From NCBI GenBank assembly GCA_020848545.1, contig JADLHZ010000023.1, positions 1-37,641 on the forward strand: a stretch of DNA of 37,641 nucleotides. The letters run 5' to 3'. The stretch is from Deltaproteobacteria bacterium. GTDB taxonomy: Bacteria; Myxococcota; JADLHZ01. Positions 4,188 through 31,262 of the stretch are shown here, piece by piece. The notes beneath the pieces are model-generated. The model ran no database searches and was not told the origin of the DNA. It was given only the letters and a program-made list of their open reading frames with translations. The number at the start of each line of letters is the position of its first letter. Position 1 is the stretch's first letter. The translations under genes were made by a program, and so were the position numbers.

Positions 4188-4196
4188 CTCCGCCTC

Positions 4197-5069: not shown

Positions 5070-5084
5070 GCAATAGACAATTGC
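5070..5084. promoter_or_regulatory. Dyad operator in LysR/dioxygenase divergent spacer
   Basis: GCAAT-AGACA-ATTGC is a perfect 15-bp dyad abutting the LysR start codon. Length and spacing fit a LysR-type binding site, although it does not match T-N11-A literally. Binding here would block LysR transcription and could activate the gene at 5145. The assignment is inferred. Confidence 0.45.
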
Positions 5085-5144
5085 CAAAGCACAGGTTGAT
5101 GAACTAATGCAAAGGTAGCATCTTCGAGCCAGAGGATCAGACCC

Positions 5145-6062: not shown

Positions 6063-6149
6063 CGGCTGTTGGTGCGCGAATGATCGAGGTAGTACAAAAA
6101 AACCGCGCCTCGCGCTCACCGCCAGGCTAGCTCGAAAGGTTAGAGGAAA

Positions 6150-7732: not shown

Positions 7733-7796
7733 GCAACGTCGAGCAATATCTTCATTGCTTCCACTCGCACACAATCACATCAACGCGGAGGGTACG

Positions 7797-8216
7797 ATGA
7801 GCGACCATGATAACAGCGCCACGCAGACGGTCCGCCGCATGTTCGCAGCTTTCGCCGCCGCTGATCTCGATGCGCTCATCGAGACCGTTCATCCGCATTC
7901 TCGTTGGGTGTACTACGGCGCGAACCCGCGACCCACGAAGGCGGAGATCACGGGGCGCGCTGGGGTCCGAGCGTTCTTCGAGAAGATTTTGAAGCGGTTG
8001 GAGATGTCCGCTTTCAATACCCTCGAGTTCGTCGCGCAGGGCAACACGGTCATTGTGCTCGGCAACGAGTCGGGGAAAGTGCGCGCGACAGGACAGCCAT
8101 TCCATAACGAGTGGGCACAGAAGTACGTGGTCGAGGATGGCCTCATCGTCGAGATGGCCGAGTGGAACGTGCAGATTGACCAACCAGACCCGCGTGACCA
8201 AGCGAGTGCATCGTGA
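7797..8216 (+). CDS. SnoaL-like (NTF2 fold) protein
   Basis: A 139-aa single-domain SnoaL-like protein. The frame is open further upstream, but ATG 7797 follows GGAGGG and begins the fold properly. The signature order is clear: an N-terminal helix ending in F-A-A-A-D-L-D-A-L, then H-P-H-S-R-W-V-Y-Y-G, the G-R-A-G-V-R-A-F-F helix, and terminal strands ending in W-N-V-Q. This matches the stress-related group of NTF2-like proteins often linked to LysR/oxidoreductase clusters. It starts 64 bp after the pirin gene. The ligand or reaction is unknown. Confidence 0.85.
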   Translation: MSDHDNSATQTVRRMFAAFAAADLDALIETVHPHSRWVYYGANPRPTKAEITGRAGVRAFFEKILKRLEMSAFNTLEFVAQGNTVIVLGNESGKVRATGQPFHNEWAQKYVVEDGLIVEMAEWNVQIDQPDPRDQASAS

Positions 8217-8259
8217 AGCAGCGCGTCGCCCGTGCACAGCGAAGCACTGAGGTGCGATC

Positions 8260-9204
8260 ATGCATGTGACCACACTTGCGTCGCCCACGGTGTGGATGGG
8301 CTTTGCCGTGCTCGTCGTCGCAGTGCTCGCGATCGACCTCGGTGTCTTCAATCGCAAAGCGCACGTCGTAAAACCACGCGAAGCGCTCGTTTGGACCGGC
8401 GTCTGGGTCTCACTCGCGCTCGCATTCAGCGTGTTCGTTTGGCAGCGCTTCGGTGCGACTGCAGCGGAGGAGTACCTGACGGGTTACGCGATTGAGAAGG
8501 CGCTCTCCGTCGACAACCTCTTCGTCATGTACGCAGTCTTCACCGCCTTCTCGATTCCGGCCCTTCATCAACACCGCGTCCTGTTTTGGGGGATCCTCGG
8601 CGCCGTCATGATGCGCACCATCATGGTGTTCGCTGGCGCAGCGCTGCTCGCGAGCTTTCATTGGCTCATCTTTATCTTTGGCGGGTTCCTCATCATCACC
8701 GGCATCAAGATGCTGCTTCGCCGGGACGAGCGCCCGCATCCCGAGAACAGCCGCGTGCTTCGCGCCATCAAGAAAGTCCTGCCCGTTAGCAACGAGCTCC
8801 ATGACGGTAAGATGTTCGTCCGTCTTGGAGGTGTGCTGACGGCTACTCCGGTCTTCCTCGCGCTCGTCACAATCGAGGCGACGGACGCCGTGTTCGCGGT
8901 CGACTCCATCTTCGCTATTTTCGCCGTGACGACCGACCCGTTCATCGTGCTCACGTCGAACGTCTTTGCCATCCTTGGCTTGCGCTCGCTGTACTTCGTG
9001 CTGTCCGGCGCCGCGGAGCGTTTCAAGTACGTTCAACCTGGTCTCGCTCTGGTCCTCGTGTTCGTCGGCGTGAAAATGGCCATCTCGGACTGGGTGAAGA
9101 TCCCGGTGCTCGCATCACTCGCAGTGATCGTGCTCCTTGTCGGTGGCTCCGTCATCGCATCACTCATCGGGACGAAAGACCGCGCCCTGAACACCGGGTC
9201 CTAG
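8260..9204 (+). CDS. TerC/Alx family integral membrane protein
   Basis: A 314-aa TerC-family membrane protein with about eight or nine hydrophobic segments and the family's acidic intramembrane residues: E-K-A-L-S-V-D-N-L-F near residue 80 and A-T-D-A-V-F-A-V-D-S near 210. Alx and TerC relatives export or sense manganese and support tellurite or alkali resistance. The extended central loop (residues 150-185, rich in R, E and H) is as in Alx. The length equals the family's usual 310-320 aa. The upstream gap is only 43 bp, with a GAGGTG ribosome site, so the yybP-ykoY manganese riboswitch that controls many Alx genes has no room here. It is probably co-transcribed with the pirin module. Confidence 0.93.
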   Translation: MHVTTLASPTVWMGFAVLVVAVLAIDLGVFNRKAHVVKPREALVWTGVWVSLALAFSVFVWQRFGATAAEEYLTGYAIEKALSVDNLFVMYAVFTAFSIPALHQHRVLFWGILGAVMMRTIMVFAGAALLASFHWLIFIFGGFLIITGIKMLLRRDERPHPENSRVLRAIKKVLPVSNELHDGKMFVRLGGVLTATPVFLALVTIEATDAVFAVDSIFAIFAVTTDPFIVLTSNVFAILGLRSLYFVLSGAAERFKYVQPGLALVLVFVGVKMAISDWVKIPVLASLAVIVLLVGGSVIASLIGTKDRALNTGS

Positions 9205-14196: not shown

Positions 14197-15177
14197 TCAA
14201 GCCCGAACAATGATGAGCGTGCCGAGATAGAGCAAGTAGGCAACGACGAAGGCGATCCCTTCACGTCGCGATACCATTTGATCGCTACGAAACACCGGCA
14301 AGCACACGATCGCGACTCCCGCCGCCAACGGTAGATCGAGCCAGAGGATGTCATCGCTAACGTCGACCCCCGAGGGCGCAACGACGCAGGTAAGACCTAA
14401 GATCACGACGATGTTCGTGATGCTGCTGCCGATCAGGTTGCCAACTGCGACGTCGCGATCGTTTCTGATGGTCGAGACGATGGTCGTTGCCAGCTCGGGC
14501 GCCGAGGTACCGATGGCGACGATTGTGAGACCGATGACCGCGTCCGAGATGCCAAAGGATCGCGCGATGTCGACCGCGCCGGCCACGAGCAGCTCGGCGC
14601 CGAGAACCGTCAGCGCGATCCCAGCCGCGACGAGCAACGTGTTCCATGCCCTGCGCGCAGTAGGGCCGCGCAGCAGGGCCCGCTTGCCGTACTCCTCGGC
14701 GAATTCGTGTTGGAGCGCAGGGCTCTCCTTCCGGCTCAGGTGGACTAATGCCACGATGTAAGCCACCGCCGCGACGAGCAACAAGAAGCCGTCGAGCCGA
14801 CTGAGCACGCCATCGGCGGCCATCACGAGCAACACGAGCGCCGTGCCGATCATCACTGGAACGTCGAGGCGAATGCTCAGGAGCTGCAAGGGCAGCGGTC
14901 TGATCGCGGCACTGAGCCCGAGGATCAAAAGGATGTTGACGATGTTCGTGCCGGCGATGTTTCCGACCGCGAGCGCTCCCTTGCCTTCTGCGACTGCGGC
15001 GATTCCCACCGCCAGCTCGGGCGTGCTCGTACCGATGGCGACGACAGTGAGGCCGATGAGAATGGGTTTGACGCCGAGCATCGCCGCGATACGCGTCGAA
15101 CCGCGCAATATCATCTCGGCGCCGAGCGTAATCACGACGAGGCCGCCGAGAAAAATGAGGCTGGGCGGCAAGCTCAT
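14197..15177 (-). CDS. Calcium/sodium antiporter (CaCA family, YrbG-like)
   Basis: A 326-aa K+-independent Ca/Na exchanger with about ten transmembrane segments. The two inverted-topology alpha-repeats are plain: V-A-I-G-T-S-T-P-E-L near 50-60 and V-A-I-G-T-S-A-P-E-L near 220-230, each with its acidic residue that binds the ion, each followed by a G-N-x-x-G-x-N/S-I-x-N motif. The long frame starts earlier, but ATG 15177 gives the usual N-terminus (a first membrane helix at once). It is the last gene of the minus-strand ion/stress run, 49 bp after the beta-CASP gene. Confidence 0.93.
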   Translation of the reverse strand: MSLPPSLIFLGGLVVITLGAEMILRGSTRIAAMLGVKPILIGLTVVAIGTSTPELAVGIAAVAEGKGALAVGNIAGTNIVNILLILGLSAAIRPLPLQLLSIRLDVPVMIGTALVLLVMAADGVLSRLDGFLLLVAAVAYIVALVHLSRKESPALQHEFAEEYGKRALLRGPTARRAWNTLLVAAGIALTVLGAELLVAGAVDIARSFGISDAVIGLTIVAIGTSAPELATTIVSTIRNDRDVAVGNLIGSSITNIVVILGLTCVVAPSGVDVSDDILWLDLPLAAGVAIVCLPVFRSDQMVSRREGIAFVVAYLLYLGTLIIVRA

Positions 15178-15226
15178 CGGAGCTTCACCCCAGGAAGACC
15201 GCAGTGTGACGTCATGAGGTCCGGTT

Positions 15227-16585
15227 TCATCCGAGCTTGATCGTTTGGCCGTGCTCGGGAACGACCGTGTCCCACGAGAAAGCGTCATTCAGGCGGCGGC
15301 GCATGGCGTCGGTGGGCGCGGGCTCGCCATGGGTGACGAAGACTCGTTTGGGAGAAATTTTGCTGCGCCGAAGAAGCGCCAAGAGCTCTACGTAATCGGC
15401 GTGCGCTGACAACCCCTCGATATACGCAATCTTTGCCTTGACCGGCACGTACTGCCCGAGGAGCTTGAGCTCGTCGCAGCCGTCGAGCAGCGTTCGGCCG
15501 CGTGTTCCCGCTGTCTGATAACCCACGAGCAGCACGGTGTGCTGCGCCTCCGGAAGAAAGCGGCGCAGGTGATGAAGGACGCGCCCCCCGGTTGCCATCC
15601 CGCTCGCCGAGATGACGATCTTCGGTGTGGGATCGAGATCGATGGCCCTCGACTCGTCCGAGGTGGCAGTGTTGCGTGGCAGAGCGCACAGGCGCACGCA
15701 TTCCTCGGGCGTGAGCTTGTGATCTTCGACATGACGCGCGAACACGCTCGTGGCCTGTATGGCCATCGGGCTGTCGAGATACACGGTAATGTTTGGAATC
15801 GCCTCGGTTCGTTTCAACTCCGCGAGTAAATGCAGGATGTGCTGCGCGCGGCCGACCGCGAACGCCGGAACGACCAACGTCCCTCCTTTGCCGACGGTTT
15901 CGCGAACCAATGCCGCGAGTTTGGCATCCACATCTTCGGGCGGATGACGGCGGTCGCCGTAGGTCGACTCGAGGACCAAGTAGTCACACGCGGGCAGCGG
16001 GTCCGGCGCTTTCATGATTGGATCCACCTCGCGCCCGACATCGCCCGAAAAGCAGATCGATGAGCCATCGGCTTCGAGCGCGACGTAAGACGAGCCGACA
16101 ATGTGTCCTGCCCGAGAAAAACGCACATTCACCCCTTCTGCCGGCGAGAAAGGGGTGTAAAATTCCCGCGGCTCGAGGTGCTGCAGGCAACTCTCGGCTT
16201 CTTCGCGGGTGTAGAGAGGCAACGCGGGGTGGTGGCGCGCGTAACCGTGCTTGTTCGCAAACCGCGCTTCCTCTTCTTGGAGGTAGCCCGAATCAGGGAG
16301 CAGGATGCGCAAGAGGTCTGCCGTGCCTCTCGTGCACCAGATGCGCCCCGAGAAGCCGTTCTTCACCAGCCTCGGAAGATAGCCCGAGTGGTCGATATGG
16401 GCGTGCGTGAGCACGACTGCATCGAGCGCAGCCGGGTCAAACGGCGGACTCGACCAATTGCGCTCTCGCAAGCTCTTGATCCCCTGAAAGAGCCCGCAAT
16501 CGACGAGGATGTTGGCCCCCCGAGTGCGGACCAAGTAACGGGAGCCGGTGACGGTTCCCGCCGCGCCGGCAAAAGTGACGTGCAT
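15227..16585 (-). CDS. MBL-fold beta-CASP RNase-like protein
   Basis: A 452-aa metallo-beta-lactamase-fold protein with a beta-CASP domain and C-terminal RNA-specificity (RMMBL) segment, as in bacterial and archaeal CPSF-73-like ribonucleases. Zinc ligands appear in H-A-H-I-D-H (61-66), a later G-H-I-V-G-S histidine, F-S-G-D-V-G (Asp) and the final T-H-G-E-P histidine. The beta-CASP signatures E-S-T-Y-G-D-R and S-A-S-G-M-A-T-G-G are complete. It should cleave RNA. It sits between a CPA2 antiporter (41 bp upstream) and a Ca/Na exchanger, beside a tandem universal stress protein, which suggests RNA turnover under stress. Confidence 0.92.
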   Translation of the reverse strand: MHVTFAGAAGTVTGSRYLVRTRGANILVDCGLFQGIKSLRERNWSSPPFDPAALDAVVLTHAHIDHSGYLPRLVKNGFSGRIWCTRGTADLLRILLPDSGYLQEEEARFANKHGYARHHPALPLYTREEAESCLQHLEPREFYTPFSPAEGVNVRFSRAGHIVGSSYVALEADGSSICFSGDVGREVDPIMKAPDPLPACDYLVLESTYGDRRHPPEDVDAKLAALVRETVGKGGTLVVPAFAVGRAQHILHLLAELKRTEAIPNITVYLDSPMAIQATSVFARHVEDHKLTPEECVRLCALPRNTATSDESRAIDLDPTPKIVISASGMATGGRVLHHLRRFLPEAQHTVLLVGYQTAGTRGRTLLDGCDELKLLGQYVPVKAKIAYIEGLSAHADYVELLALLRRSKISPKRVFVTHGEPAPTDAMRRRLNDAFSWDTVVPEHGQTIKLG

Positions 16586-16625
16586 GGCCCGTTGCTATCA
16601 TGCTCGAACAGCCGCCCGCCATGCG

Positions 16626-18719
16626 TCACTCCTTGCTGACTGGTTCAGCATCGTCGATGCTCGCGGTCCCCTCGATGAGCTGTCGAGCGGCGTCTACCGC
16701 CTCGGTGGTACCAGCAAGGGCGAGCACGTCTCCCGCGAGTATCCGCTCCTGTGCGGTCGGGATGATGCCGCGTCCTGCGCGAGAGATGGCGAGGACGGTC
16801 GCACCCGTTCGACCCCGCAGGTTCAGCTCGGAGAGGGATTTACCGGTTGCCGGACTTCGTTCTGGCGCGATGACCGGAACAGGCGCGCCAAGTCCAGGAA
16901 GAAACTCGATGGCGCGGCTCAGTGCGTGGTGGCCATCGGCAACCTCGGCCTTCTTTCCTCCCTGTTTGCGTAGCACCTCGATGATGGTTTCCGCTCCTGC
17001 GCGAACATGTCCGTGCAGGTTCGCAGCGCCGCGCCAGAAAGCGACGGCCAAGATACCAAGGACGAGCGCGAGGACCACAGCGCCCATGGCACTGCCGACG
17101 AACGGCTGAGTGAGCGCGAGCAGAGGGACGCCAACGACCAACGCGACCGCGATTTGTAGCGCCAGTACCAGGGCACGCCGGGGCGCGGCGCCGAGGTCCA
17201 CTTTCCCCTCCGGAGAGAGCGGCAACGCCGCTTCTGCGAGCGTTACCCCAAGGCGCCGAGTGACGCGGATGATGCCAAAAAAGAAGGGCAGCCCTACTGC
17301 AATCGCCCCGGCAACAACGAGAATCTTCACGATCATGCCGTTGATCCCGAGCTTGCCCTCGACGTAGCCGACGATTGCGTCCATCGTCGTCGCGACGAAG
17401 ATCACGTGCCCGCTGACCAAAGCGACGTCGAAGAGGAGGCGGCGAATGAGCGAGCGAATCCCCGCGGCTCTGTCGCTCTTCGGATGCGAAGTGCGCATCG
17501 TCTCGAGCCAGGCACCGTACAGAGTCGCGAAGGTTTGCAGGCTCTTTGGAAGCTTGCGGTCGATGTAGCGCGCGAACGGATCCGAGGCGCGCACGAGCCA
17601 CGGTGTCGTCAACGTGGTGATTGCGGATGCCGCCGCGGCGACCGGATAAAGAAAATCGCCGGTCGCCTTGAGGGTCATGCCGAGAGAGGCGACGATGAAC
17701 GCGAACTCGCCGATTTGCGACAGGCTCATCGCCGCTCTCACCGACGTTCGAACGCCGCTGCCAGTGAGAAACGAGCCGATAGACACGCCCACGAACTTGC
17801 CGAACAAGACCACGAGCGTGATGACGATGATGGCGAGATAGTGTTCTTTGATCAGCGCTGGGTCGAGCATCAACCCGACTGAGACAAAGAAGACCGCGGC
17901 GAAGACGTCACGGACGGGTTGAACGAGCCGCTCGATCTCTTCTCCCTCGCCAGAGGCCTCGATGAGCGACCCTGCGACGAAGGCACCAAGCGCCACGGAA
18001 TAGCCGAACGCATGCGCGAGCAACGCGACGCCAAAGCAAAGCGCAATGCTCGCGATGACGGTCGTCTCCGCACGGCCAAGTCGTACGACTGATCTTATGA
18101 AGCGGGGCACCAGCAGGAGCCCGAGGCCCACCAAAGTGATCAGAAAGACGCCGAGCTTTCCGATGGTGATAGCGAGAGCTTGCCCACTCAATCCCGCTCC
18201 AGTCGCGATCGCCGTGAGCAGCGCCATGAGGGAGATCGCGATGAGATCTTCTACAATGAGGATGCCGACGACCAGATCACGCAGCGTCCCCGTGATCTTT
18301 TGCTCATCGAAGACCTTCGCGATGATCGTCGTGCTCGAGCTGGCGATCGCTGCGCCCGTGAAGAGGCCATCCATCGTACTCCAGCCGAGGAGCCGCGCGC
18401 TCAGGTACCCTAGGTAGAACAACAAGCTGCATTGCAGGAGTGACGTCAGGCCCGCTGTTGGAGCCAGTCGAATGAGCTTCGAGATACTGAACTCGAGCCC
18501 GAGGGCAAACATCAGCAGGATGACGCCGAGCTCCGAAAGCGTATGAACGATGTTCGGATCGGCGACGAGCGGAACGGGAAAATGCGGTCCGATGACGACA
18601 CCGGCGATGATGTACCCAAGCACGACCGGCTGGCGCAGGCGCTGAAAGACGATGGTCGTGACGGCTGCGACGCCGAGCACTACGGTGAGCGATTCGAGGA
18701 AATCGTATGCGCTGGGCAT
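16626..18719 (-). CDS. CPA2 cation:proton antiporter with RCK_C (TrkA-C) domain
   Basis: A 697-aa KefB/RosB-type antiporter. The N-terminal ~390 residues carry about twelve transmembrane helices with the Na_H_Exchanger pattern: L-R-Q-P-V-V-L-G-Y-I-I-A-G in the first pore helix, then L-G-V-I-L-L-M-F-A-L-G-L-E-F-S, and the I-A-S-S-S-T-T-I-I-A-K and I-V-E-D-L-I-A-I-S core motifs. Two further hydrophobic pairs (about 440-560) form an extra C-terminal membrane part. A final TrkA-C (RCK_C) domain follows (about 610-690). There is no TrkA-N Rossmann domain, so gating is not NAD/glutathione-type. It is 24 bp after the USP gene in the same run. Confidence 0.92.
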   Translation of the reverse strand: MPSAYDFLESLTVVLGVAAVTTIVFQRLRQPVVLGYIIAGVVIGPHFPVPLVADPNIVHTLSELGVILLMFALGLEFSISKLIRLAPTAGLTSLLQCSLLFYLGYLSARLLGWSTMDGLFTGAAIASSSTTIIAKVFDEQKITGTLRDLVVGILIVEDLIAISLMALLTAIATGAGLSGQALAITIGKLGVFLITLVGLGLLLVPRFIRSVVRLGRAETTVIASIALCFGVALLAHAFGYSVALGAFVAGSLIEASGEGEEIERLVQPVRDVFAAVFFVSVGLMLDPALIKEHYLAIIVITLVVLFGKFVGVSIGSFLTGSGVRTSVRAAMSLSQIGEFAFIVASLGMTLKATGDFLYPVAAAASAITTLTTPWLVRASDPFARYIDRKLPKSLQTFATLYGAWLETMRTSHPKSDRAAGIRSLIRRLLFDVALVSGHVIFVATTMDAIVGYVEGKLGINGMIVKILVVAGAIAVGLPFFFGIIRVTRRLGVTLAEAALPLSPEGKVDLGAAPRRALVLALQIAVALVVGVPLLALTQPFVGSAMGAVVLALVLGILAVAFWRGAANLHGHVRAGAETIIEVLRKQGGKKAEVADGHHALSRAIEFLPGLGAPVPVIAPERSPATGKSLSELNLRGRTGATVLAISRAGRGIIPTAQERILAGDVLALAGTTEAVDAARQLIEGTASIDDAEPVSKE

Positions 18720-18743
18720 CTGGCGGCTTGCCTCTTCCAGCTT

Positions 18744-19664
18744 CTACAGCGGCTTGACGCGCAGCCGAGACGGCCGGACGACGAGCACATCGCAAGGGGC
18801 TTCTCTCAAGACGTCCGCCGCGACGCTGCCCAAGAAGGCATAGCTGACACCCGAACGCGCGTGCGTACCAAGCGCGATGAGGTCGCTGTCTTTATGTTCG
18901 ATGGCCTTGATGAGCACCGTCCGAGGCGGCCCGAGCTTCAGCGTCAACGTGTGAGGGATCTTCGCGAGCTGGAGGCGGCGACGCACGGGGCCGAGTGCTT
19001 CGAGCGCCGCCAGCTTACAATCATGACGAAGCCGCGCCCGTTCTTCGTCGTTCAGCCCCATGATCGATGACTCGAGCAGCGGCTCGAAGGCGTGCACGAG
19101 ATGGCGAACAACGGTGGGGGATACCGCCCGGCCCATGAAGTCCATGGCCACCATAGACGTTTCGTCGGTATCGATTGCCACGATGGGACGGCGGTATTCA
19201 CTTCTCGGCGGTCGATTGACGAGCAGGACCGGGGTTGTGCAGTGGCGCGCGATCTTCTCGGCGGTTGAGCCTAGGAATAAATCTCGTAGTGGCCTTTTAC
19301 CATGACGCCCGATCACCAAGAGATCGGGCTTCGCCTCGGTCGCGAGAGCGGCGATGACCCTCGCAGGGTCTCCGCGCAGAAGTTTGGTCGCGACTTTTGC
19401 CTCTCGTCTTTGCTCTTTGGCGACGCCTGCCAGTGCATCGAGCTCGCTCTGCGCCGAGCGCACAGCGCGCGTGTCATATGCGCGGGGTAACTCCGGCAGC
19501 ACGTGAACGATATCGATCCGAGCGGTTTCAGCCAACGGCAACTTGGTCGCTCTCACGAGCGCCTGCTCCGCGCGCGCCGAGAAGTCAGTTGCCACCACGA
19601 TGTGGTGGAGCGGTTCCCGCTCGAGTGTCAACGAACTATTCGACCGGCTTGGTCGCTCGGACAT
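18744..19664 (-). CDS. Tandem universal stress protein
   Basis: A 306-aa protein with two UspA domains. The first (about 15-155) ends in G-R-H-G-K-R-P-L-R-D-L-F-L-G-S-T-A-E, which is the ATP-binding G-2x-G-9x-G-S/T pattern with Arg-Pro in place of the second glycine region. The second (about 160-300) has the closer match, G-T-H-A-R-S-G-V-S-Y-A-F-L-G-S-V-A. Tandem USPs bind ATP/ADP and adjust stress survival. It is the first gene of the minus-strand run USP-antiporter-RNase-exchanger, with a strong GGAGGA ribosome site, and is divergent from the second CPA2 antiporter. Confidence 0.92.
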   Translation of the reverse strand: MSERPSRSNSSLTLEREPLHHIVVATDFSARAEQALVRATKLPLAETARIDIVHVLPELPRAYDTRAVRSAQSELDALAGVAKEQRREAKVATKLLRGDPARVIAALATEAKPDLLVIGRHGKRPLRDLFLGSTAEKIARHCTTPVLLVNRPPRSEYRRPIVAIDTDETSMVAMDFMGRAVSPTVVRHLVHAFEPLLESSIMGLNDEERARLRHDCKLAALEALGPVRRRLQLAKIPHTLTLKLGPPRTVLIKAIEHKDSDLIALGTHARSGVSYAFLGSVAADVLREAPCDVLVVRPSRLRVKPL

Positions 19665-19756
19665 CGCTTCCTCCTCTGACGCGTCTTGATTGCATTCGAG
19701 ACGATCTAGAGGCTGTTGTTGAACTGCTCGTTGGCAATGTCAACCGATGCCCGAAA

Positions 19757-19786
19757 CGACCGCGGAACGTGACTCGGCTGCGGTCG
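19757..19786. promoter_or_regulatory. Inverted repeat in the USP/antiporter divergent spacer
   Basis: CGACCGC (19757-19763) and GCGGTCG (19780-19786) form 7-bp arms with a 16-nt spacer, 21 bp before the start codon at 19808. This may be a leader hairpin or a binding site. Weak evidence: symmetry and position only. Confidence 0.3.
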
Positions 19787-19807
19787 CTGCGGTAACAAAA
19801 CTGCCAC

Positions 19808-21616
19808 ATGTGTCGCTCATGGTCCTTCTTGCCTGTCGCCATCGGCGCGATGCTGCTACCTCGCGTCGCAGAAGCCGCGGACGGCTCCGACTCACACTCG
19901 GTCATAGCGAGCATCGCGCTCTGTATGGTTGCCGCCAGCGCGTTCGGTGTGCTCATGCGCGCACTGCGGCAACCGCTGATTCTTGGCTACCTCCTAGCCG
20001 GCATCGCGATCGGGCCGATTGGTCTGGGGCTCATTAACAACGACGCCGATATTAGGACAGTCGCTGAAATCGGCCTCATCCTGCTGCTCTTCATGATCGG
20101 TTTGGAGATCGACCTCCGCAAGATGCTCTCTGCGGGGCGGTTCGTGACAATCACCGGGATGTTACAGTTTCCGCTTTGCGCGGCGGCAGTCTTCGGCGTG
20201 CTGGTGTTACTCGAGCAGAGCGGCATGTCTGTTGGCTCGAGCTATACGAAGCTGTACTTCGCGATTGCGGCAAGCCTCAGCAGCACGATGATCGTCGTGA
20301 AGCTGCTCTACGACAAGTTCGAGCTCGATACGCTCCCGGGACGGATCACCGTCGGGGTGTTGGTCTTTCAGGACATCTGGGCGATCATTTTGCTCGCCGT
20401 CCAGCCAAACATGGCGAATCCCCAAGTGGGACCGCTGCTCGCGACCTTCGCCGCTGGCGGCCTTCTCGTCGCAGCGGCTCTGTTGGCTAGCCGCTACGTC
20501 TTGCCCCGTATCTTCCACTCTGTGGCGAAAGTCCCAGAGCTGATGCTCGTCCTTTCGCTCGGCTGGTGTTTCCTCGTTTGCCTCGTCGCTGCCCATCCGA
20601 AGGTGGGCTTGTCGATGGAGATGGGTGCGCTCATCGCTGGGATTTCGCTTGCGACCTTCCCCTACAACCTCGACGTCATCGGCAAGGTCGTCAGCATCCG
20701 CGACTTCTTCATCACGCTGTTCTTCGTTGGCCTCGCGATGCAGATTCCGGTTCCCGAGCTCTCTGTCGTCGTCTTGGCCGCGATTCTCGCCGTGGTCGCG
20801 GTGATCGCACGCTTCGCGGGGATCTTTACGATCCTCTACGCGCTGCGTGCCGGCCATCGCGCGTCCTTGCTCGCGACCCTGAATCTCTCCCAGGTGAGCG
20901 AGTTTTCGTTGGTGATCGCGGCATTGGGTGTGACTCTCGGGCACATCGACCCCGGCGCATTGACCACGCTGATTTGGGTATTCTCAGTGTTGGCGGTCGC
21001 CTCCACCTACCTCATTGGTTACAGCCACGGCCTGCAGTCCAAAATCAGCGGCCTGCTGCGGCGTGTGGGCCTCAAGGATCTCGGTGGCGCGCAAGAGTAC
21101 ACTGACAAGAAGCGAGAGCGTCCAATCGTTCTCCTTGGCTTCTTTCGCCTCGCAAGCGCGTTCATAGATGAAGCAAGCCGAAGGCACCAACACTTGCTCG
21201 AACAGATCACCGTGGTCGATTTCAATCCCATCGTGAAGCAGAAGCTCGATGCGCTCGGCGTGCACTGCGTCTATGGCGACATCAGCCACCCAGATACCCT
21301 TCATCACGCTGGCATCCACGACGCGCGCGTTGTGCTGTCGACCGTGCCGGATGCGTTCCTCAAGGGAACGAACAACGCGAAGGTGCTGAGTGTCATTCGC
21401 GCATTGTGCCCGCACGCGAAGATCGTTGTGACGGCCGAGCAGCCGAGCCGAGCCAAAGAGCTCTACGCTGCGGGCGCTGACTACGTACTTCAACCCTCGG
21501 CGGTCGCCGGCGCTGCCATGGTGCCGGTCGTCGAGCAAGCGTTGCACGAAGCGCTACAAAACATGCGAGAAGAGGCGCTGAGCGAGCTCGAACAACGACG
21601 CGAGGTCCTCGCCTAA
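19808..21616 (+). CDS. CPA2 cation:proton antiporter with TrkA-N-like domain
   Basis: A 602-aa Kef-type antiporter. About 25 N-terminal residues look like an export signal (hydrophobic run, then E-A-A-D). Twelve membrane helices follow with the CPA2 pattern: L-R-Q-P-L-I-L-G-Y-L-L-A-G, I-G-L-I-L-L-L-F-M-I-G-L-E, S-L-S-S-T-M-I-V-V-K and V-F-Q-D-I-W-A-I. From about 440 on there is a TrkA-N Rossmann domain with conserved strands V-V-D-F-N-P and V-Y-G-D-I-S-H-P-D-T-L. The nucleotide loop reads G-F-F-R-L-A-S instead of G-x-G-x-x-G, so NAD(H) binding may be altered or lost. A C-terminal coiled helix follows. It differs clearly from the paralogue at 16626, which has TrkA-C instead. Expected role: K+/H+ or Na+/H+ exchange. 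Confidence 0.92.
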   Translation: MCRSWSFLPVAIGAMLLPRVAEAADGSDSHSVIASIALCMVAASAFGVLMRALRQPLILGYLLAGIAIGPIGLGLINNDADIRTVAEIGLILLLFMIGLEIDLRKMLSAGRFVTITGMLQFPLCAAAVFGVLVLLEQSGMSVGSSYTKLYFAIAASLSSTMIVVKLLYDKFELDTLPGRITVGVLVFQDIWAIILLAVQPNMANPQVGPLLATFAAGGLLVAAALLASRYVLPRIFHSVAKVPELMLVLSLGWCFLVCLVAAHPKVGLSMEMGALIAGISLATFPYNLDVIGKVVSIRDFFITLFFVGLAMQIPVPELSVVVLAAILAVVAVIARFAGIFTILYALRAGHRASLLATLNLSQVSEFSLVIAALGVTLGHIDPGALTTLIWVFSVLAVASTYLIGYSHGLQSKISGLLRRVGLKDLGGAQEYTDKKRERPIVLLGFFRLASAFIDEASRRHQHLLEQITVVDFNPIVKQKLDALGVHCVYGDISHPDTLHHAGIHDARVVLSTVPDAFLKGTNNAKVLSVIRALCPHAKIVVTAEQPSRAKELYAAGADYVLQPSAVAGAAMVPVVEQALHEALQNMREEALSELEQRREVLA

Positions 21617-23170: not shown

Positions 23171-23176
23171 TTGTGC

Positions 23177-23779
23177 ATGGAGGTCGCTCGCCCGGACTGG
23201 AATCGGCTCTACGAAACGGCATCCAGCCAGCAGGGCCTGTTCACGACCAAGCAAGCCGAAGAGGCGGGCTACTCACCGCAACTTCTCAACCATCACATTC
23301 ATACCGGCCGGGTGACGCGCCTTCGCCGAGGCGTCTATCGTATTGTTCATTTTCCGGCCGGTGAGCATGAGGACCTGGTCGCCGCGTGGCTTTGGTCAGA
23401 ACAGGCGGGCATCGTCTCGCACCAAACGGCCCTCGCCCTCCATGACCTATCAGACCTGCTCCCAGGGAAAATCCATCTCACCTTGCCAAGCTCGTGGCGT
23501 GCTCGCCGCTTTCGCGTTCCCGCGGGCGTCGTCCTCCACTATGCGGACGTACCAGCAGATGATCGCAAGTGGTTCGGCGCCACGCCTATTACGGGCGTGC
23601 AACGAACACTGAACGACTGCGCGAAGGAAGCACTGTCGGCGGATCTTCTAAGACAAGCGGCCCAGCAGGCACTGCGGCGTGGACTCGTGACGCGCCGCGA
23701 GCTTGGCGACGTCGAAGACGTGCTCAAACCTTTCGGAGGAATCGCACCGCATGACGGTTCGGACCTACAAGTCACCTGA
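23177..23779 (+). CDS. abiEi: Type IV toxin-antitoxin antitoxin, AbiEi family
   Basis: A 200-aa AbiEi-type antitoxin. The N-terminal winged helix is clear: Q-Q-G-L-F-T-T-K-Q-A-E-E-A-G-Y-S and L-R-R-G-V-Y-R-I. The central region has H-Q-T-A-L-A-L-H-D-L-S and I-H-L-T-L-P-S-S-W, as in the family. In characterised AbiE systems, AbiEi represses its own promoter through inverted repeats and counters AbiEii without direct binding. ATG 23177 is used; a TTG two codons upstream is less likely. It overlaps AbiEii by 29 bp. The length is at the short end for the family. Phage-defence activity is known for AbiE in Lactococcus but is not shown here. Confidence 0.9.
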   Translation: MEVARPDWNRLYETASSQQGLFTTKQAEEAGYSPQLLNHHIHTGRVTRLRRGVYRIVHFPAGEHEDLVAAWLWSEQAGIVSHQTALALHDLSDLLPGKIHLTLPSSWRARRFRVPAGVVLHYADVPADDRKWFGATPITGVQRTLNDCAKEALSADLLRQAAQQALRRGLVTRRELGDVEDVLKPFGGIAPHDGSDLQVT

Positions 23780-24644
23780 CGCGTTCAAGTCAGCGCTCGA
23801 ACAGCGCTTGCGCACATCGTCGTCAACAGGAATGGATTTCTCGCGAAAGCGTCAGCTCCTTGTGTTCGATCGCTTTCTCGCGCGAGTTGTCAGCGTCCTC
23901 GGAGACGCTGTCACGCTGAAAGGCGGTCTCGTGCTCGAGCTGCGCCTTGAGCGCGCGCGAACAACCAAAGACATCGATCTCCGCATGATGGGATCCGCAG
24001 CGGACGTCTTGGACAAGTTGCAGGGCGCTGGTCGGCTCGACCTAGGCGATTTCATGACGTTCGAGATCGCGCCGGACAATGAACACCCCGAGATCCAAAA
24101 CGACGGCATGAAATACATCGGCTTTCGTTTTCGAGCGACATGTTCGCTCGCGGGCAAACTTTACGGACGACACTTTGGCGTAGACGTGGCCTTTGGCGAC
24201 CCGATGCTCGGCGAGCCTGAGGTACGAACCGCCGAGGACGTGCTTGCCTTCGCCGGTATTCCACCGCCAAAGCTGCGCCTGTACCCGCTCGAAACGCACC
24301 TCGCCGAGAAACTTCATGCCTACACGATGCCGCGAGAGCGCCCCAACACGCGCGTGAAGGATCTGCCAGACCTCGCTCTTCTTGGGACTGCCCAAACCAT
24401 CGACGCGCGTCGCCTCCGTGAAGCATTCGAGCAGACGTTTACCTTTCGGAACATCCATCCCCTGCCCGCCGCCTTGCCGAACCCGACCGCAAGCTGGGCA
24501 AACTCGTACGCGGCGATGGCTCGCGAAGATGATCTACCGTGGCCGACGCTCGCCGAGGTGACGAACGCAGCTCAGGCGTTTGTTGATCCGATTCTCGCCG
24601 GAGACGGCGGTACGTGGGTTCCAGCTCAATGGCGGTGGATTTGA
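23751..24644 (+). CDS. abiEii: Type IV toxin, AbiEii nucleotidyltransferase
   Basis: A 297-aa nucleotidyltransferase toxin. The catalytic core has K-G-G-L-V-L-E-L (57 onward), the acidic pair D-I-D (74-76) and a later V-D-V-A-F-G-D segment. The AbiEii helix E-T-H-L-A-E-K-L-H-A-Y with V-K-D-L-P-D-L-A is intact. The family transfers nucleotides, typically to tRNA acceptor stems, stopping growth until the antitoxin restores balance. ATG 23751 has GGAGGA 10 nt upstream and overlaps the antitoxin gene. The stop codon lies inside the first bases of the 24641 repeat, so the repeat may have landed exactly at the gene end. All motifs seen are intact, so the toxin is probably active. Confidence 0.92.
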   Translation: MTVRTYKSPDAFKSALEQRLRTSSSTGMDFSRKRQLLVFDRFLARVVSVLGDAVTLKGGLVLELRLERARTTKDIDLRMMGSAADVLDKLQGAGRLDLGDFMTFEIAPDNEHPEIQNDGMKYIGFRFRATCSLAGKLYGRHFGVDVAFGDPMLGEPEVRTAEDVLAFAGIPPPKLRLYPLETHLAEKLHAYTMPRERPNTRVKDLPDLALLGTAQTIDARRLREAFEQTFTFRNIHPLPAALPNPTASWANSYAAMAREDDLPWPTLAEVTNAAQAFVDPILAGDGGTWVPAQWRWI

Positions 24645-25077: not shown

Positions 25078-28000
25078 ATGCTCAACTTGAGTCTGGCGCT
25101 GCTGCTCTCCGGCTTTGATCTCACCGTCCAAGGCGTCACCACGACCTCGCGCGACCCGGTTGCGCTTTCGGCCGACGAGCGACTCATGGCGAGCGGCGGC
25201 GGCGGGCGCGTGACGCTCTGGGACATGATGACCGGCCGCATCCTGCGTTTCATCAAAACGAAGAAGGGCATCTCCGGCATTGCCTTCGAGCCGAACGGCA
25301 AGGTCGTGGTGTCGGTCTCAGACAACGGCCACTTCCTTTGGCACGACGTACTCAGCGGCGCGCAAGTGCATGAGCTCGAGAGCCCGCCCTACACCACACT
25401 CAGCGCGGGATCGCTCGCGTTCACCCCGGACGGTGCAGTGATGCTCAGCGGCGCGCACGACAAGCTCGTCGTGTGGGACGCCAAAGCTCGCACGGTGAAA
25501 AACACAATCAAAGTCAGCGGGGCCGTGACGGAGCTCGTGGCCATCAGCGCGCAGCGCGCCTTGGGGATTGCCGGCACCAGCGCGCTCATCATCGTCGACT
25601 TTGCGAGTGGCACCATCGAACGCACGCTGCCGCTCGCAAGCGGCGTCGCATGCTTGAAAGTGTCGGCAGACGCCAAACGTGCCGTGGTCGCGCAGGGCGA
25701 CAAGCTGTGGGTCCTGGATCTGACGAAGATGCACAGCGCGGAGCTCGAGCCAGTGAAGGTCAGGTCACCCGAGTACGCCGAATCGATTCAGGGAGTCGGC
25801 ATCAACGGCAACCTCGTATACGTCGCTTACAACACCGGAAAGAGCATCGTGGCGATCGATCTGACGACGAAGAAGGTCGTGGCTTCGTTCGGCACCAGCA
25901 TGGGCCTGAACAGCGTCTACGGCTACACGCGGCACTTTCTGCAAGATCGCATCCTGGAGGTCGACGACGTCAATGGCGCGCTGGTCTTCTCGTCGCTGCA
26001 AGGCGGCGAAGAGCTTCGCCGCGTGCCCTTCATCATTCCGAAGGATCGCACCCCGCACTTTGCGCCCGGAAGCCACACCATTTGGTACACCCACGAAGAC
26101 GGCGCCCGCAGCTTCGACTTCGAACTTGGCACCGCTCTGCGTGCAACACGCGCGCGCGGCATGTTCGGCACCTTCAGCCACGATGGCAAACACCTGCTCG
26201 TCAACCGCGAAATCAGAGTCTCCGGGCATCGGCGGGATCTGCTGGAGCTATGGGACCTGCAGAGGGATCAGCTCGCGCGCACCTTCGACGTTCCGCCGGT
26301 CGAGAGAACATCGAACGGAAACATCATGTGGGTGAGCCCGCAGCTCAGCCGTGACGGCACGCGCGCCACCTCGCACATGGGCGGCGAAAACATCCTGTAC
26401 GTTTGGGACACACGCACGGGAAAGCTCGTGCGCGCCATCGACAAGCCATTCGCATCGGGACCATACGCCGAGGTGCTGAGTCCCGATGGCAAGCAGGTGA
26501 TCTCCGGCGGCCTCACCGGCATGAACAAGTATGCGATCGCCGTATTCGACGTGGGCACAGGCCAGCGGACCGAGGAGTGGAGCGTGCCGAGCTTTTACGG
26601 CTACCACTTCGAGCTGAGCAGCGACGGTCGCTTCTTGGTCTGGCAGGATCACACAGGCGGCGTATTCGTGCGCGACATGACCACCAAGCAGATCCGCAAC
26701 TACGCAGGCAAATCATTCTCGCTCACGCGCGACAGCAAGAGCTTGGTTCTCGAAGGCGCGAGCAGCGTCAGCGTGGTTGGCCTACCCGAACAACAGCTCA
26801 AGCGCACCATCGATGTCGCGGCGTACACGCCGGAGCTGAGCGACGATGGCAACTACTTGGTGGGCCGCGACCTCTCAGGCGGATTCTTCTTGATGAACCT
26901 CAGTAACAAGCAGCGCGTTTGGTTCCTCACGAGCAGCGACGAGTGGATCGCCTACACCGACGACGGCTACTTCGACGGCTCCAAAGGCGGCGCTCAGCTA
27001 CTCAACGTCGTGAGCGGTATGACGGTGTTTGCGCTCGACCAGTTCGCCATCGCGCGCAACCGGCCAGAGATTTTGCTCGATCGGCTCGGCTTCGGCAGCG
27101 CTGACCTGAACCAGCACTACAAGAACCAATATTTGAAGCGCCTGCGCAAAGCGGGGATCACGGAGGCGCAACTATCTGGCGAATTTCATGCGCCCAACGC
27201 ACGCATCAGCAAGGTCAGCGTGACCGGGAAAACTGCGACGATCGCTGCAAGCTGCAGCGATGACCGCTTTGAGCTCGAACGCTACCAAGTGTTCGTCAAT
27301 GACGTACCGCTCTATGGCGCGCGCGGAAAGGAAGCCAAGGGCAAGTCGGCCGCGCTCAGCGACAAGATCCAGCTCACGCAGGGGCACAACAAGATAGAGC
27401 TCTCGTGCACCAACCGCGCCGGCGCCGAATCGTATCGCGCGCTCGCAGCCGCGTCCTCGTCCGTCGAGAGCAAGAGCGCGCTCTATGTGCTCGCGTTCGG
27501 CGTCTCGAAGTACAAGTCCCCCGGCCTGGATCTCGGCTTTGCGCATAAAGACGCAGAGGACCTGGCCAAGCTGCTCGGTGGCTTTCAACCGGCACACGTC
27601 AAGACGTTCTTGAACGAAGCCGTGACCACGCGCGCGATCACGGAGGCCAAGGCGTTCGTGCAGAAGGCGACACCGGACGACGTGTTCGTCTTGTTCATCG
27701 CTGGCCACGGCGTGCACGACACTGATCCAGAAGCGACCTATTATTATCTCACGCACGACGCCGATCCCGCCGCGCTCTCGACCACCGCGGCCAACTTCGA
27801 CCAGATCGAAGACTTGCTGCAGGGCATCGCGCCGCGGCGCAAGCTATTTCTCATGGACACCTGCGAGTCAGGCGAGCGCGACGAGGACGCGCCGGCCATG
27901 ACGGCTGTCGACCTCAAGGCCGGGGTTCGCTCCCGCGGCATCGTCAAAAAGGGACAGCAAGCCGCAGCGCCTTCGCCGCGCATCTATCTACAGGCGCGCG

Positions 28001-28293
28001 ACCGCTTCATTTACAACGACCTATCACGCCGTTCGGGCGCCGTCGTGTTCTCGTCGAGCCGAGGAGGAGAGCTGTCTTACGAGGACAATGTGCTGCAAAA
28101 TGGATTCTTCACCAGCGCCATCTTGAAGGCCCTGTCCTCGGACGCGGCCGATGCAAACAAAGACAAGCGCGTTTCCCTCACCGAGCTGCGCCAGTATGTG
28201 GTGCGCGCGGTGGACGAACGCAGCAAGGGTTTGCAGCACCCGACGATCGATCGCGATAATCAATCATTGCGCCTCGAGCTGCCAATCAAGTGA
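25078..28293 (+). CDS. Large beta-propeller protein with C-terminal caspase domain
   Basis: A 1071-aa protein. The N-terminus is a short hydrophobic stretch (L-S-L-A-L-L-L-S-G), possibly a weak export signal. Residues 25-620 hold WD40-like blades: V-T-L-W-D, L-V-V-W-D, L-E-L-W-D, L-Y-V-W-D and I-A-V-F-D are clear examples. Then comes the Y-T-D-D-G-Y-F-D-G-S segment seen before the protease in bacterial caspase-WD40 proteins, a beta-sandwich with a likely disulfide (Cys726, Cys777), and a C14 caspase domain (about 800-1071). The catalytic dyad is intact: His877 in A-G-H-G and Cys929 in D-T-C-E-S-G. The S-S-R-G-G-E-L-S-Y strand follows. It should be an active cysteine protease; substrate unknown. 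It is convergent with a second protein of the same plan at 28434. Confidence 0.88.
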   Translation: MLNLSLALLLSGFDLTVQGVTTTSRDPVALSADERLMASGGGGRVTLWDMMTGRILRFIKTKKGISGIAFEPNGKVVVSVSDNGHFLWHDVLSGAQVHELESPPYTTLSAGSLAFTPDGAVMLSGAHDKLVVWDAKARTVKNTIKVSGAVTELVAISAQRALGIAGTSALIIVDFASGTIERTLPLASGVACLKVSADAKRAVVAQGDKLWVLDLTKMHSAELEPVKVRSPEYAESIQGVGINGNLVYVAYNTGKSIVAIDLTTKKVVASFGTSMGLNSVYGYTRHFLQDRILEVDDVNGALVFSSLQGGEELRRVPFIIPKDRTPHFAPGSHTIWYTHEDGARSFDFELGTALRATRARGMFGTFSHDGKHLLVNREIRVSGHRRDLLELWDLQRDQLARTFDVPPVERTSNGNIMWVSPQLSRDGTRATSHMGGENILYVWDTRTGKLVRAIDKPFASGPYAEVLSPDGKQVISGGLTGMNKYAIAVFDVGTGQRTEEWSVPSFYGYHFELSSDGRFLVWQDHTGGVFVRDMTTKQIRNYAGKSFSLTRDSKSLVLEGASSVSVVGLPEQQLKRTIDVAAYTPELSDDGNYLVGRDLSGGFFLMNLSNKQRVWFLTSSDEWIAYTDDGYFDGSKGGAQLLNVVSGMTVFALDQFAIARNRPEILLDRLGFGSADLNQHYKNQYLKRLRKAGITEAQLSGEFHAPNARISKVSVTGKTATIAASCSDDRFELERYQVFVNDVPLYGARGKEAKGKSAALSDKIQLTQGHNKIELSCTNRAGAESYRALAAASSSVESKSALYVLAFGVSKYKSPGLDLGFAHKDAEDLAKLLGGFQPAHVKTFLNEAVTTRAITEAKAFVQKATPDDVFVLFIAGHGVHDTDPEATYYYLTHDADPAALSTTAANFDQIEDLLQGIAPRRKLFLMDTCESGERDEDAPAMTAVDLKAGVRSRGIVKKGQQAAAPSPRIYLQARDRFIYNDLSRRSGAVVFSSSRGGELSYEDNVLQNGFFTSAILKALSSDAADANKDKRVSLTELRQYVVRAVDERSKGLQHPTIDRDNQSLRLELPIK

Positions 28294-28433
28294 CCGTTAC
28301 GGCCATGGCAGCCGTGCGATGCCAACCCAGAGTCTTGCGTGTGAAGTGCCCAGCTCGCGCATGTCGGCGGGCATGCAACGAGCAACGAGAGAATGAGGTA
28401 GCGAGCTTCTTCGGAGATCACCCGAAATCATCC

Positions 28434-31262
28434 TCAGCGAGCGAACTCGAGGCCGTCGCTCAGCGGGTAGTCATAGTAAGGGTGCGAGACCCGAAGCGTA
28501 GGATTCTGCTGGCCTTGGGAAAGCTCGGAGACGCGCTCTGTCACATAGCGCGCAACGTCGTGTACACCGATGATATCGCGGCTGTAGCCGTGGAACGAGT
28601 ACGGGGTACGGTTCAAGACTTCGAGCAGTGCGTGCGTGAACAAACCGCGTTTGAAGGCGCCCGACTCATACGACAGCTCGTTGGCTGACGACGAAGCCAA
28701 CACGACCAGGCCGCTCTGTGCGCGCAGGCTGTCCAAGCTCAGATTGCGCGCGGCGATGACCCGCTGCAATTCAGAGCTCGACTCAGTCGTCGTCTTCGCC
28801 TTGATTCCGCGCGTCGAAGTTTGGCTCAGCACAGCCACTTCCTCTTTACGATCGATCAGCGGCGGCGCAACCGTGACCGCGTGGACCTTGGGCGCCGACA
28901 GCTCTCCAGAGTGACACGTATCGAGCAAGAGCAGGCGCTGTCTCGCTGCGCTCGCGCTCAACGCCTGCTCGATGCGGGAAAACGGCACTCCCGTCTTTTC
29001 TGGCGCCGCGACCGAAACGTCTGACGAAGCGAAATAGTACTGGTCGTCGCTGCCAATGAAGCCGTGGCCCGCCATGAACACGATCACCATGTCGTTAGGC
29101 TTGGCTTTGCTCAGCGCGGCGAGTGACGCCTCAATGCGGGCCTTGGTACCGTCCCGCACCTCGGTCACCAAGACCTTGGCGAAGCGACGTCGATGTGCCT
29201 GAAGCGCTCGCGCCAAGGCGCTGGCGTCGGTGGCCGCGTAGTTCAAGGCGAGGGACGGATCTTGATAGCTCGACACCCCCACCGCGACCACGTGCAAGCT
29301 CGGCGCGTGCTTCTTCATCGCATCGTCGAACTTGCCGAGCGAGCCGACGGCATTGCGATACTCGACCACGGAGACTGGCCGATACGTCGTGCGCACGATC
29401 GCTGGCCACGAGCGCGTCTGCTTCGAGCGCACCTCGATGAAGTTGTCACCGAGCGCTAGCTGCAGCTGAAGCTCGTCGACGCTGTCGACCGAGCGGCGCG
29501 TGTACGCCTTGTCGGACAACACCACCCCATTCAAGCGCACGCTCCAACCCTCATTCGTCCCGCGAGGCATCAAGCGGACCTTGATGGTTGCGTCGTTGAC
29601 CACCGGAGGAGGCGCCTGCGTAATCACGGGCGCTGCTTCGAGCGCCTCCAAGCGAGAGATGATCTGCGGGCTTAGCTCGGTCAGACCGGCGGACTCCAAG
29701 CTCCCGCCGAGCAGCGTGGTCAGCGCCGCCGCCGAGCTGCCGTTGCTCAAAGTCAGCAGCGGCTCAGCCGATGGTGAATACACGATGCGCCCGTCGGCGA
29801 ATCGCCCGACCACGGCACCGTTTTCGTACCGCACGAACTGCGCGAGCTCGCTCTTCTTCTTCCAGTCCCAGATGCGCGTCGTGCCATCGAGCGCACGCGT
29901 GATGAGTTGGTTTGTCGCGGGATAGTATTTGACATCATAGACCTTACCCTTGTGGCCGGGGACGCGGTGCGTCTTGCCGGCCCCATCGACGAGACAAAAA
30001 TCGTTGGCGCGGGCGGGATCGAGCTTGGTTTCGCACGCGGCACCCCGCAAACCGCCAGCGAGCACCTGGTCATCCGGTAACTGATGAGGGCACCGCTGCA
30101 GGTCCTCGGCCAGCCAGTGTTCGGCCGCGTCGATGCACAGATCGGACGGATAGTCCGGGCCGCGTTTGAGCCTCTTCCACCCTTGATCGAAGACGGGGGT
30201 CAACGAGAACGTAGACAAGTCCAAGAGGTGCGGCGCCATCTTGTTTCCTGTCATCAGCGCTCGCTTGTGGTCAGCTAGCAGATCGAGCCGCTGGTCGGCG
30301 AAGCCCGTCTTGCGCTCGCTGAAGTTCGCCGAGCGCCACTTCACCTTCATCGACGCAAGGTCCCACAAGGCGACGGCGTGACCGTCAGCCTCGACATAGA
30401 GCCACTCGCCGGCATCGTTTTGTTGAATCAACGGCGACGACACGTAAGGACTCACGATCACCTGCTCGCGTTTGATCGCGGCGTCGTAATAGACGAGCTC
30501 GCTATTGAAGTTGCAGATCGCTGCGTGTCCGCGCACCTGCCAACAATCGCGATAGGTTTTGCTGGCGAGCTTCACTTCTTCGATCATCGCTTTGCCGGCC
30601 GCGCCGCACATCGTGCGCGCCGCGAGATCAGCCCCCTCTGCGCTCGACGCCAACGCCTTCAAGCACGCGGCCTCGGTCTCGTGCCTTGCGGCGACGGTCG
30701 CCGACGCGACGTCGAGCTCCACGATCTCGAACGTCTTCTTGTTCTTGTCTGTGTCGCGCGCCATGACCCAGAGCCGCTTCGAGGCGTCGTCGAACGCCAT
30801 GTGCTTGGCCATGCGAATGGGCAAGGTCACGGCGCGGTCGTCGAGAAAGAGGCGGACATCGAGCCCCTCGGCGTAGTGCACAGCGTCGTTGGCGATCGCC
30901 CAAATCGCCTCCGAGAACTGGCGTTTGATCTGCTTCGGCGGCGGCGGTGTGCCGTCGAGCCTGTGCAAGCTTCCGTCGACGAGAAGCAGCCGCTCGTCTG
31001 GGCTCAGTGCTGCGCTCCAGTGCTGGGTCGGAAAGTACCGCACTGGCGTGCCAGCGCGAAAATCCCACAGCTCGATGCCTTTTTGCGTCCGGCGCAGAAT
31101 CGGATTTTTGGCTGGCGATGGTCCTTCAGCGAACGACGACAACAAGAGCCAGCGCCCGCTCGCCGACACGATGGTGAGGTCATCGCGATGTCCGGTGTTT
31201 TTCGGAATAAAGCTGAGATCGATGGCGCAGACACTAAAGCCCAACAGTAACGCGACCGGCAT
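28434..31262 (-). CDS. Second propeller-caspase protein, convergent partner
   Basis: A 942-aa protein counted from ATG 31262 (a TTG 36 bp upstream would add 12 residues). The N-terminus M-P-V-A-L-L-L-G-F-S-V-C-A looks like a short signal sequence cut after Ala. Residues 20-540 form a divergent propeller with G-I-E-L-W-D, A-V-A-L-W-D and T-R-I-W-D blades, then a short beta domain with V-R-L-N-G-V. The caspase domain is about 655-942, with His733 in A-G-H-G and Cys783 in D-T-C-H-S-G, spaced 50 residues as in its neighbour (52). The S-S-A-N-E-L-S-Y strand is conserved between both. They share architecture but little sequence identity, so they are old paralogues rather than a recent copy. The 140-bp gap between the two stop codons shows no clear terminator. 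Confidence 0.87.
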   Translation of the reverse strand: MPVALLLGFSVCAIDLSFIPKNTGHRDDLTIVSASGRWLLLSSFAEGPSPAKNPILRRTQKGIELWDFRAGTPVRYFPTQHWSAALSPDERLLLVDGSLHRLDGTPPPPKQIKRQFSEAIWAIANDAVHYAEGLDVRLFLDDRAVTLPIRMAKHMAFDDASKRLWVMARDTDKNKKTFEIVELDVASATVAARHETEAACLKALASSAEGADLAARTMCGAAGKAMIEEVKLASKTYRDCWQVRGHAAICNFNSELVYYDAAIKREQVIVSPYVSSPLIQQNDAGEWLYVEADGHAVALWDLASMKVKWRSANFSERKTGFADQRLDLLADHKRALMTGNKMAPHLLDLSTFSLTPVFDQGWKRLKRGPDYPSDLCIDAAEHWLAEDLQRCPHQLPDDQVLAGGLRGAACETKLDPARANDFCLVDGAGKTHRVPGHKGKVYDVKYYPATNQLITRALDGTTRIWDWKKKSELAQFVRYENGAVVGRFADGRIVYSPSAEPLLTLSNGSSAAALTTLLGGSLESAGLTELSPQIISRLEALEAAPVITQAPPPVVNDATIKVRLMPRGTNEGWSVRLNGVVLSDKAYTRRSVDSVDELQLQLALGDNFIEVRSKQTRSWPAIVRTTYRPVSVVEYRNAVGSLGKFDDAMKKHAPSLHVVAVGVSSYQDPSLALNYAATDASALARALQAHRRRFAKVLVTEVRDGTKARIEASLAALSKAKPNDMVIVFMAGHGFIGSDDQYYFASSDVSVAAPEKTGVPFSRIEQALSASAARQRLLLLDTCHSGELSAPKVHAVTVAPPLIDRKEEVAVLSQTSTRGIKAKTTTESSSELQRVIAARNLSLDSLRAQSGLVVLASSSANELSYESGAFKRGLFTHALLEVLNRTPYSFHGYSRDIIGVHDVARYVTERVSELSQGQQNPTLRVSHPYYDYPLSDGLEFAR

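Follow-up and report, generated by a model that had tools for sequence, protein, structure and literature searches.

Two convergent propeller–caspase genes in a deltaproteobacterium: independent members of an expanded protease family with a predicted Arg–Gly autoprocessing site

The two neighbouring genes described here, P1 and P2, encode proteases of the C14 (caspase) family in which a propeller (of WD40 type in P1, modelled at low confidence in P2) is followed by a small beta domain and, at the C-terminus, the caspase. Sequence comparison indicates that they are two independent members of a family that has expanded in this lineage. Both have intact catalytic dyads, the invariant acids of the S1 pocket, the caspase fold, the hydrophobic N-terminal segment common in the family, and an Arg–Gly pair in the linker between the two parts of the caspase domain (p20 and p10). 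The reading we prefer, and hold at slightly better than even, is that the family comprises sensor-proteases of the cell envelope, activated by cleavage of their own linkers.

The window (37,641 nucleotides) takes up the whole of one contig, C23, in an assembly of 8.0 Mb. P1 lies on the forward strand (25078–28293) and encodes 1071 aa; P2 lies on the reverse strand (28434–31262) and encodes 942 aa from its ATG, or 954 aa from an alternative TTG start at 31298. Both are defined by their open reading frames, Pfam C14 matches and structural models (AlphaFold2 for P1), and P1 in addition by WD40-type matches. The genes stand tail to tail, their stop codons separated by 140 bp (28294–28433). The two genes, their common order of domains and their convergent arrangement are thus real, as the initial annotation had described them, with a qualification for P2 given below. 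Folded as RNA, the gap region shows no stability beyond that of shuffled sequence (z −0.01), and a structured RNA there was rejected. GC is flat across the region, and a genomic island was rejected on that ground. The two proteins had also been said to share little sequence. This is true of the propeller halves only, which are unrelated by BLASTP; the last ~330 aa of P1 and P2 are 32% identical (E 7e-33).

P1 opens with a short hydrophobic N-terminus, MLNLSLALLLSGF (25078–25116, forward strand), weakly signal-peptide-like in sequence and without a basic n-region. Residues 28–626 (25159–26955) form a beta-propeller region, probably of two propellers, recognized by profile matches, the model and fold comparison. 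PF00400 (WD40) matches at 35.3 bits (cut-off 27), and the first propeller of the model matches a bacterial WD40 domain with a Z score of 25.0; repeats above the cut-off together with a propeller fold at Z about 25 place P1 among the WD40 propeller proteins. In structure comparison the tandem arrangement resembles that of double propellers (e.g. Apaf-1). The AlphaFold2 model, with a mean pLDDT of 73.8, has helices at residues 638–699 that lead from the propeller to an Ig-like beta domain, residues 707–794 (27196–27459), assigned from its strand order. A helical NRPD motif (residues 655–670; 27040–27087) lies between these two domains; it is kept in 28 of 97 members and is absent in P2. Cys726 and Cys777 lie on strands two and five of the modelled Ig-like domain, a pair common to one paralogue only (that on contig C108), and at these Ig-type B–F positions they are candidates for a possible disulfide. 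The C14 caspase domain, residues 800–1071 (27475–28290), is assigned by Pfam, the model and profile alignment. Its linker, residues 931–983, is mostly disordered in the model.

P2 is organized similarly, and for P2 the domain order holds in part: its caspase is secure, as is a single WD40 repeat, and the remainder of the propeller is of low confidence. The model has a mean pLDDT of 59.4, with a confident caspase domain. The propeller-like region, residues 30–500 (29763–31175, reverse strand), contains eight cysteines and one clear WD40 repeat, and PF00400 scores 24.2 bits, under the cut-off of 27. Five of the eight cysteines align with those of the sister protein on contig C14, at about 25% identity between the propellers. 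A small beta domain, residues 546–627 (29382–29627), is seen in the model. The caspase domain, residues 653–938 (28449–29306), is supported by structure matches to Arabidopsis metacaspase 4 (Z 21.7 over 214 residues, 3.3 Å), MALT1 (Z 21.5) and Geobacter GSU0716 (Z 20.7).

Both caspase domains score well above the Pfam C14 cut-off of 21.4 bits (P1, 60.2; P2, 56.7) and belong to that family. The catalytic dyads are exactly where they had been placed: His877 (27706–27708) and Cys929 (27862–27864) in P1, and His733 (29064–29066) and Cys783 (28914–28916) in P2, the cysteine in each case preceded by two codons by an S1 acid (Asp927 and Asp781). Across the family Gly808, Asp825, Asp868, His877, Gly878, Asp927 and Cys929 (P1 numbering) are the same in all 103 aligned members. 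When 23 caspase domains were combined into a profile, the family's AGHG and DTC.SG motifs fell on the catalytic motifs of three enzymes of known structure (GSU0716, yeast metacaspase-1 and Arabidopsis metacaspase-4), which puts both dyads at the C14 active site; phmmer searches of the PDB with single caspase domains found no match, and the profile search did. The near-equal spacing within the dyads (52 and 50 residues) is real, but it is no mark of a pair, because the paralogues also have 50–56.

Since dyads, S1 acids and fold all align with those of solved metacaspases and MALT1, both proteases should be active, as had been proposed. By profile alignment, D825 and D927 are equivalent to D365 and D462 of MALT1, which gives P1 and P2 the character of C14B enzymes. 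In MALT1, D365, D462 and E500 set specificity for Arg (PMC4357240), and the C14 enzymes so far characterized, caspases excepted, all cleave after Arg or Lys (PMC5756287). Given the shared S1 acids and a basic P1 residue that is general among non-caspase C14 enzymes, P1 and P2 should be Arg/Lys proteases, a prediction made from sequence.

The linker between the catalytic cysteine and p10 is variable, yet one of its columns is Arg in 91 of 103 members, and this Arg is followed by Gly in 70 of 103. RG occurs in 71 of the 103 linkers, compared with 24.8±3.9 (maximum 37) when each linker is shuffled 500 times, and R[GA] in 88 compared with 45.6±4.4; the sequences come from many phyla but are related and non-independent, which inflates these counts. 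Among eight held-out members, RG is present in six (shuffled, 1.6±1.0; maximum 5). P1 has SR|GI at this place (Arg953–Gly954; 27934–27939, forward strand) and P2 has TR|GI (Arg818–Gly819; 28806–28811, reverse strand), so that the two linkers carry near-identical [ST]RGI motifs. For an Arg-specific protease the simplest reading is that the Arg–Gly pair is the autoprocessing site, and it is the best candidate for one, as predicted in P1 from conservation, enrichment and the held-out check, and in P2 from alignment and linker enrichment. In the P1 model a short strand (residues 950–952) stands immediately ahead of Arg953, which would suit a substrate-like pose of that residue. MaOC1, the one prokaryotic orthocaspase biochemically characterized according to a 2017 review, autoprocesses and requires autoprocessing for activity (PMC5756287). 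In MALT1, on the other hand, linker cleavage is dispensable, and in type I metacaspases a cut between p20 and p10 is reported never to occur (PMC4357240, PMC5756287); because these enzymes manage without it, the Arg–Gly pair may serve another purpose. [RK]G also occurs soon after the catalytic cysteine in those C14 proteins of the genome that have no propeller, and so the feature may extend beyond propeller–caspases. Of the leads from this analysis, the linker motif lends itself best to testing.

Export is suggested by hydrophobicity. A strongly hydrophobic segment lies within the first 60 residues of 81% of 97 long members, compared with 1.4% of internal segments, and relatives in the same phylum (e.g. 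those at loci L266 and L267) start with recognizable signal peptides. The N-terminus of P1 is itself a poor signal peptide, its hydrophobicity (1.95) being lower than the family median (2.55) and below the cut-off used. The suggestion in the initial annotation that both proteins are exported is therefore plausible as a family-wide trait and less so from P1 taken singly; because hydrophobic N-termini are general in the family, P1 and P2 are likely to be exported. We infer the following course of events for a protein of this kind. It would be exported, most likely as a zymogen; its propeller would bind a ligand or partner; clustering or dimerization would activate the caspase domain; and the activated caspase would cleave its own p20–p10 linker at Arg–Gly (R953–G954 in P1, R818–G819 in P2), and then its target proteins.

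Propeller–caspases might instead be maturation proteases of the periplasm or cell surface that follow the logic of gingipains and have no role in death or defence. We consider this rather unlikely, but worth serious attention. Gingipain-type, Arg-specific proteases of clan CD are secreted, and gingipain R is an Arg-specific, caspase-fold protease with an Ig-like domain, although it belongs to another peptidase family (C25) and is without a propeller. The hydrophobic N-termini found throughout the propeller–caspase family agree with such a role. So do the neighbours that recur in other lineages, which are of envelope type: the commonest is an exported DUF4384 protein, sometimes with LPP20, CsgG or EAD11 parts. 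Structures of gingipain-type clan CD proteases have been reviewed (PMC4357240). Against this reading, P1 and P2 have no DUF4384-type gene beside them, and the genome's two matches to that domain are on other contigs. One neighbour protein with the effector-associated domain EAD11, moreover, points for at least one lineage to a possible part in conflict systems. Two small EAD11 proteins, one of them also DUF4384, lie directly upstream of a propeller–caspase in a Saprospiraceae genome (7909–9819 of locus L143). At L266, from the same phylum as P1 and P2, the gene next in tandem after a propeller–caspase encodes a protein that has its caspase at the N-terminus and matches DUF4384 weakly (2949–8790).

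Many DUF4384 neighbours carry a TRG motif like that of the caspase linker. In the discovery set, the same data in which this motif was first noticed, TR[GA] followed by a hydrophobic residue occurs in 12 of 15 linked DUF4384 proteins, 2 of 20 other DUF4384 proteins and 4 of 399 other neighbours; with similar sequences merged, the first comparison becomes about 8/11 versus 2/20 (p 0.0007). A held-out test of adjacency in 37 genomes found the motif in 2 of 12 linked and 6 of 37 unlinked DUF4384 proteins (p 0.64). With the failure of this test, the DUF4384 neighbour was rejected as a TRG-bearing substrate, and the motif is kept as a sub-family trait only. A broader scheme, in which widespread envelope propeller–caspases are activated at [TS]R|G, neighbouring exported DUF4384 proteins are in some lineages the substrate through the same motif, and P1 and P2, with their matching linker motifs, can activate each other in an extracytoplasmic relay, is in our opinion a long shot.

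P1 and P2 belong to a large set within their own genome. Seventeen ORFs encode C14 caspases, and nine of these form one dispersed family with a propeller and a C-terminal caspase. Besides P1 and P2, its members are the copies on contigs C87, C108, C13, C1, C14, C97 and C104, of which the C87 copy is truncated where its contig begins. P1 and P2 fall in different major groups of a tree built from 104 caspase domains; P1 is sister to the C87 copy (100/93) and P2 to the C14 copy (100/99). They are not products of a recent tandem duplication, because each has its sister elsewhere in the genome. P1 and P2 are the only adjacent pair among the nine, and the chance that any two of nine dispersed genes would be adjacent is, by our own estimate for about 7,000 genes, roughly 1%.

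This adjacency is one argument for the idea, put forward in the initial annotation, of a dedicated two-protease unit for surveillance or cell death in which the caspases act on each other. Because both linkers carry [ST]RGI, cutting of each protein by the other is chemically plausible, and convergent pairs of divergent members occur elsewhere, with gaps of 167 bp at L094 and 1573 bp at L080. The rest of the comparative evidence points the other way, and we judge a dedicated unit quite improbable. When 195 genomes of the phylum were searched, three, this one included, matched P1 (E 1e-25) or P2 (E 1e-18), and no other had orthologues of both, even though C14 domains in general are frequent there (157 of 189 genomes). 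In 84,980 species genomes a scan found 79 loci, spread over many phyla; its patterns were P1-like, so that relatives of P2 are under-sampled and possibly missed. Two or more members occur together at 14 of the 74 loci that have long members. Close neighbours form 16 pairs, 13 of them tandem, two convergent (those at L094 and L080) and one divergent (L123), and the neighbouring members come from clades other than those of P1 and P2. Across the 74 other loci no P1-clade protein has a P2-clade neighbour, the P2 clade being thinly sampled, and a P1/P2 unit may exist in unsampled close relatives. Convergent genes, moreover, cannot share a single promoter. Homologues are thus rarely neighbours in convergent form, and by the rule the initial annotation had set for itself the two-component idea falls; a conserved tail-to-tail unit was rejected on the phylum search, the tree and the orientation of neighbours.

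The family habitually clusters, since 14 of 74 loci hold several members, mostly in tandem, and the 2012 survey of metacaspases likewise noted operons (PMC3501461). It is somewhat easier to believe than to doubt that the adjacency of P1 and P2 reflects this tendency and not a dedicated unit. One Acidobacteria genome has a run of five consecutive caspase genes, all on the same strand (1411–18129 of L138), and Akkermansia from ruminants have arrays of two or three long caspases of one large clade (L105, L109, L110 and L098).

Upstream of P1, at 23171–24644, is an AbiEi/AbiEii type IV toxin–antitoxin pair, identified by strong PADLOC matches and independent of the caspases. The initial annotation had remarked on its proximity; the pair is real, and ends 433 bp upstream, but none of the other members examined has AbiE genes nearby, and AbiE, occurring at the P1/P2 locus only, was rejected as a partner. 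That P1, P2 and AbiE together form part of a defence island is most improbable. The AbiE models match strongly and the generic PADLOC caspase model does match both proteins, but the latter matches are weak and partial (19.9 and 37.7 bits), GC is flat, and the other neighbours are ion exchanger, stress and dehydrogenase genes. A cluster of ion-transport and stress genes at 14197–21616 encodes a Na/Ca exchanger, two Na/H exchangers with TrkA domains, a beta-CASP metallo-hydrolase and a universal stress protein. An EACC1 system was likewise rejected. NF047832, the NCBIfam model for EACC1-associated caspases, scores 70.1 and 94.7 bits, below its cut-off of 140, and no EACC1 gene was found beside P1 among ORFs of at least 100 aa on that strand between AbiEii and P1; the single such ORF is low-complexity and without a Pfam match.

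Bacterial propeller–caspases are spread over many phyla and are expanded in some genomes. With the linker Arg–Gly, the S1 acids and the export-like N-terminus, their function is open to simple mutational and protease tests. If they are active outside the cytoplasm, caspase-type signalling would occur in the bacterial envelope and, if so, could bear on how damage is detected in predatory or multicellular bacteria.

Several known systems resemble P1 and P2 in part. EACC1–caspase two-gene systems also attach a bacterial caspase to variable domains and are enriched in multicellular bacteria, but there the caspase is N-terminal, whereas in P1 and P2 it is C-terminal (PMC7159879). MALT1, a paracaspase (C14B), is alike in fold (Z 21.5), S1 acids, presumed Arg specificity and the presence of an Ig-like domain beside the protease. 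P1 and P2 differ from it in that the Ig domain precedes the protease and no death domain was detected in them, and MALT1 has no need of linker cleavage. Arabidopsis metacaspase 4, of type II, is alike in fold (Z 21.7) and, on the predictions made here, in Arg/Lys specificity and linker processing, and is unlike P1 and P2 in being eukaryotic, calcium-activated and without a propeller. Closest are the WD40 orthocaspases. In a survey of prokaryotic metacaspases published in 2012, WD40 was the commonest partner domain (10.9% of 671 sequences), and the survey already recorded helices at the N-terminus, possibly signal peptides, as well as operons of two or three metacaspases and high copy numbers in some genomes, with 28 in Haliscomenobacter (PMC3501461). 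P1 and P2 are convergent, unlike the metacaspases that share one operon there, and neither the linker Arg–Gly nor the probably exported form with WD40, Ig-like and C-terminal caspase domains was singled out in the text of that survey. In C14 domain, intact dyad, WD40 partner (secure in P1) and high copy number they match these orthocaspases, and are ordinary members of a recorded kind: bacterial C14 proteases with WD40 propellers.
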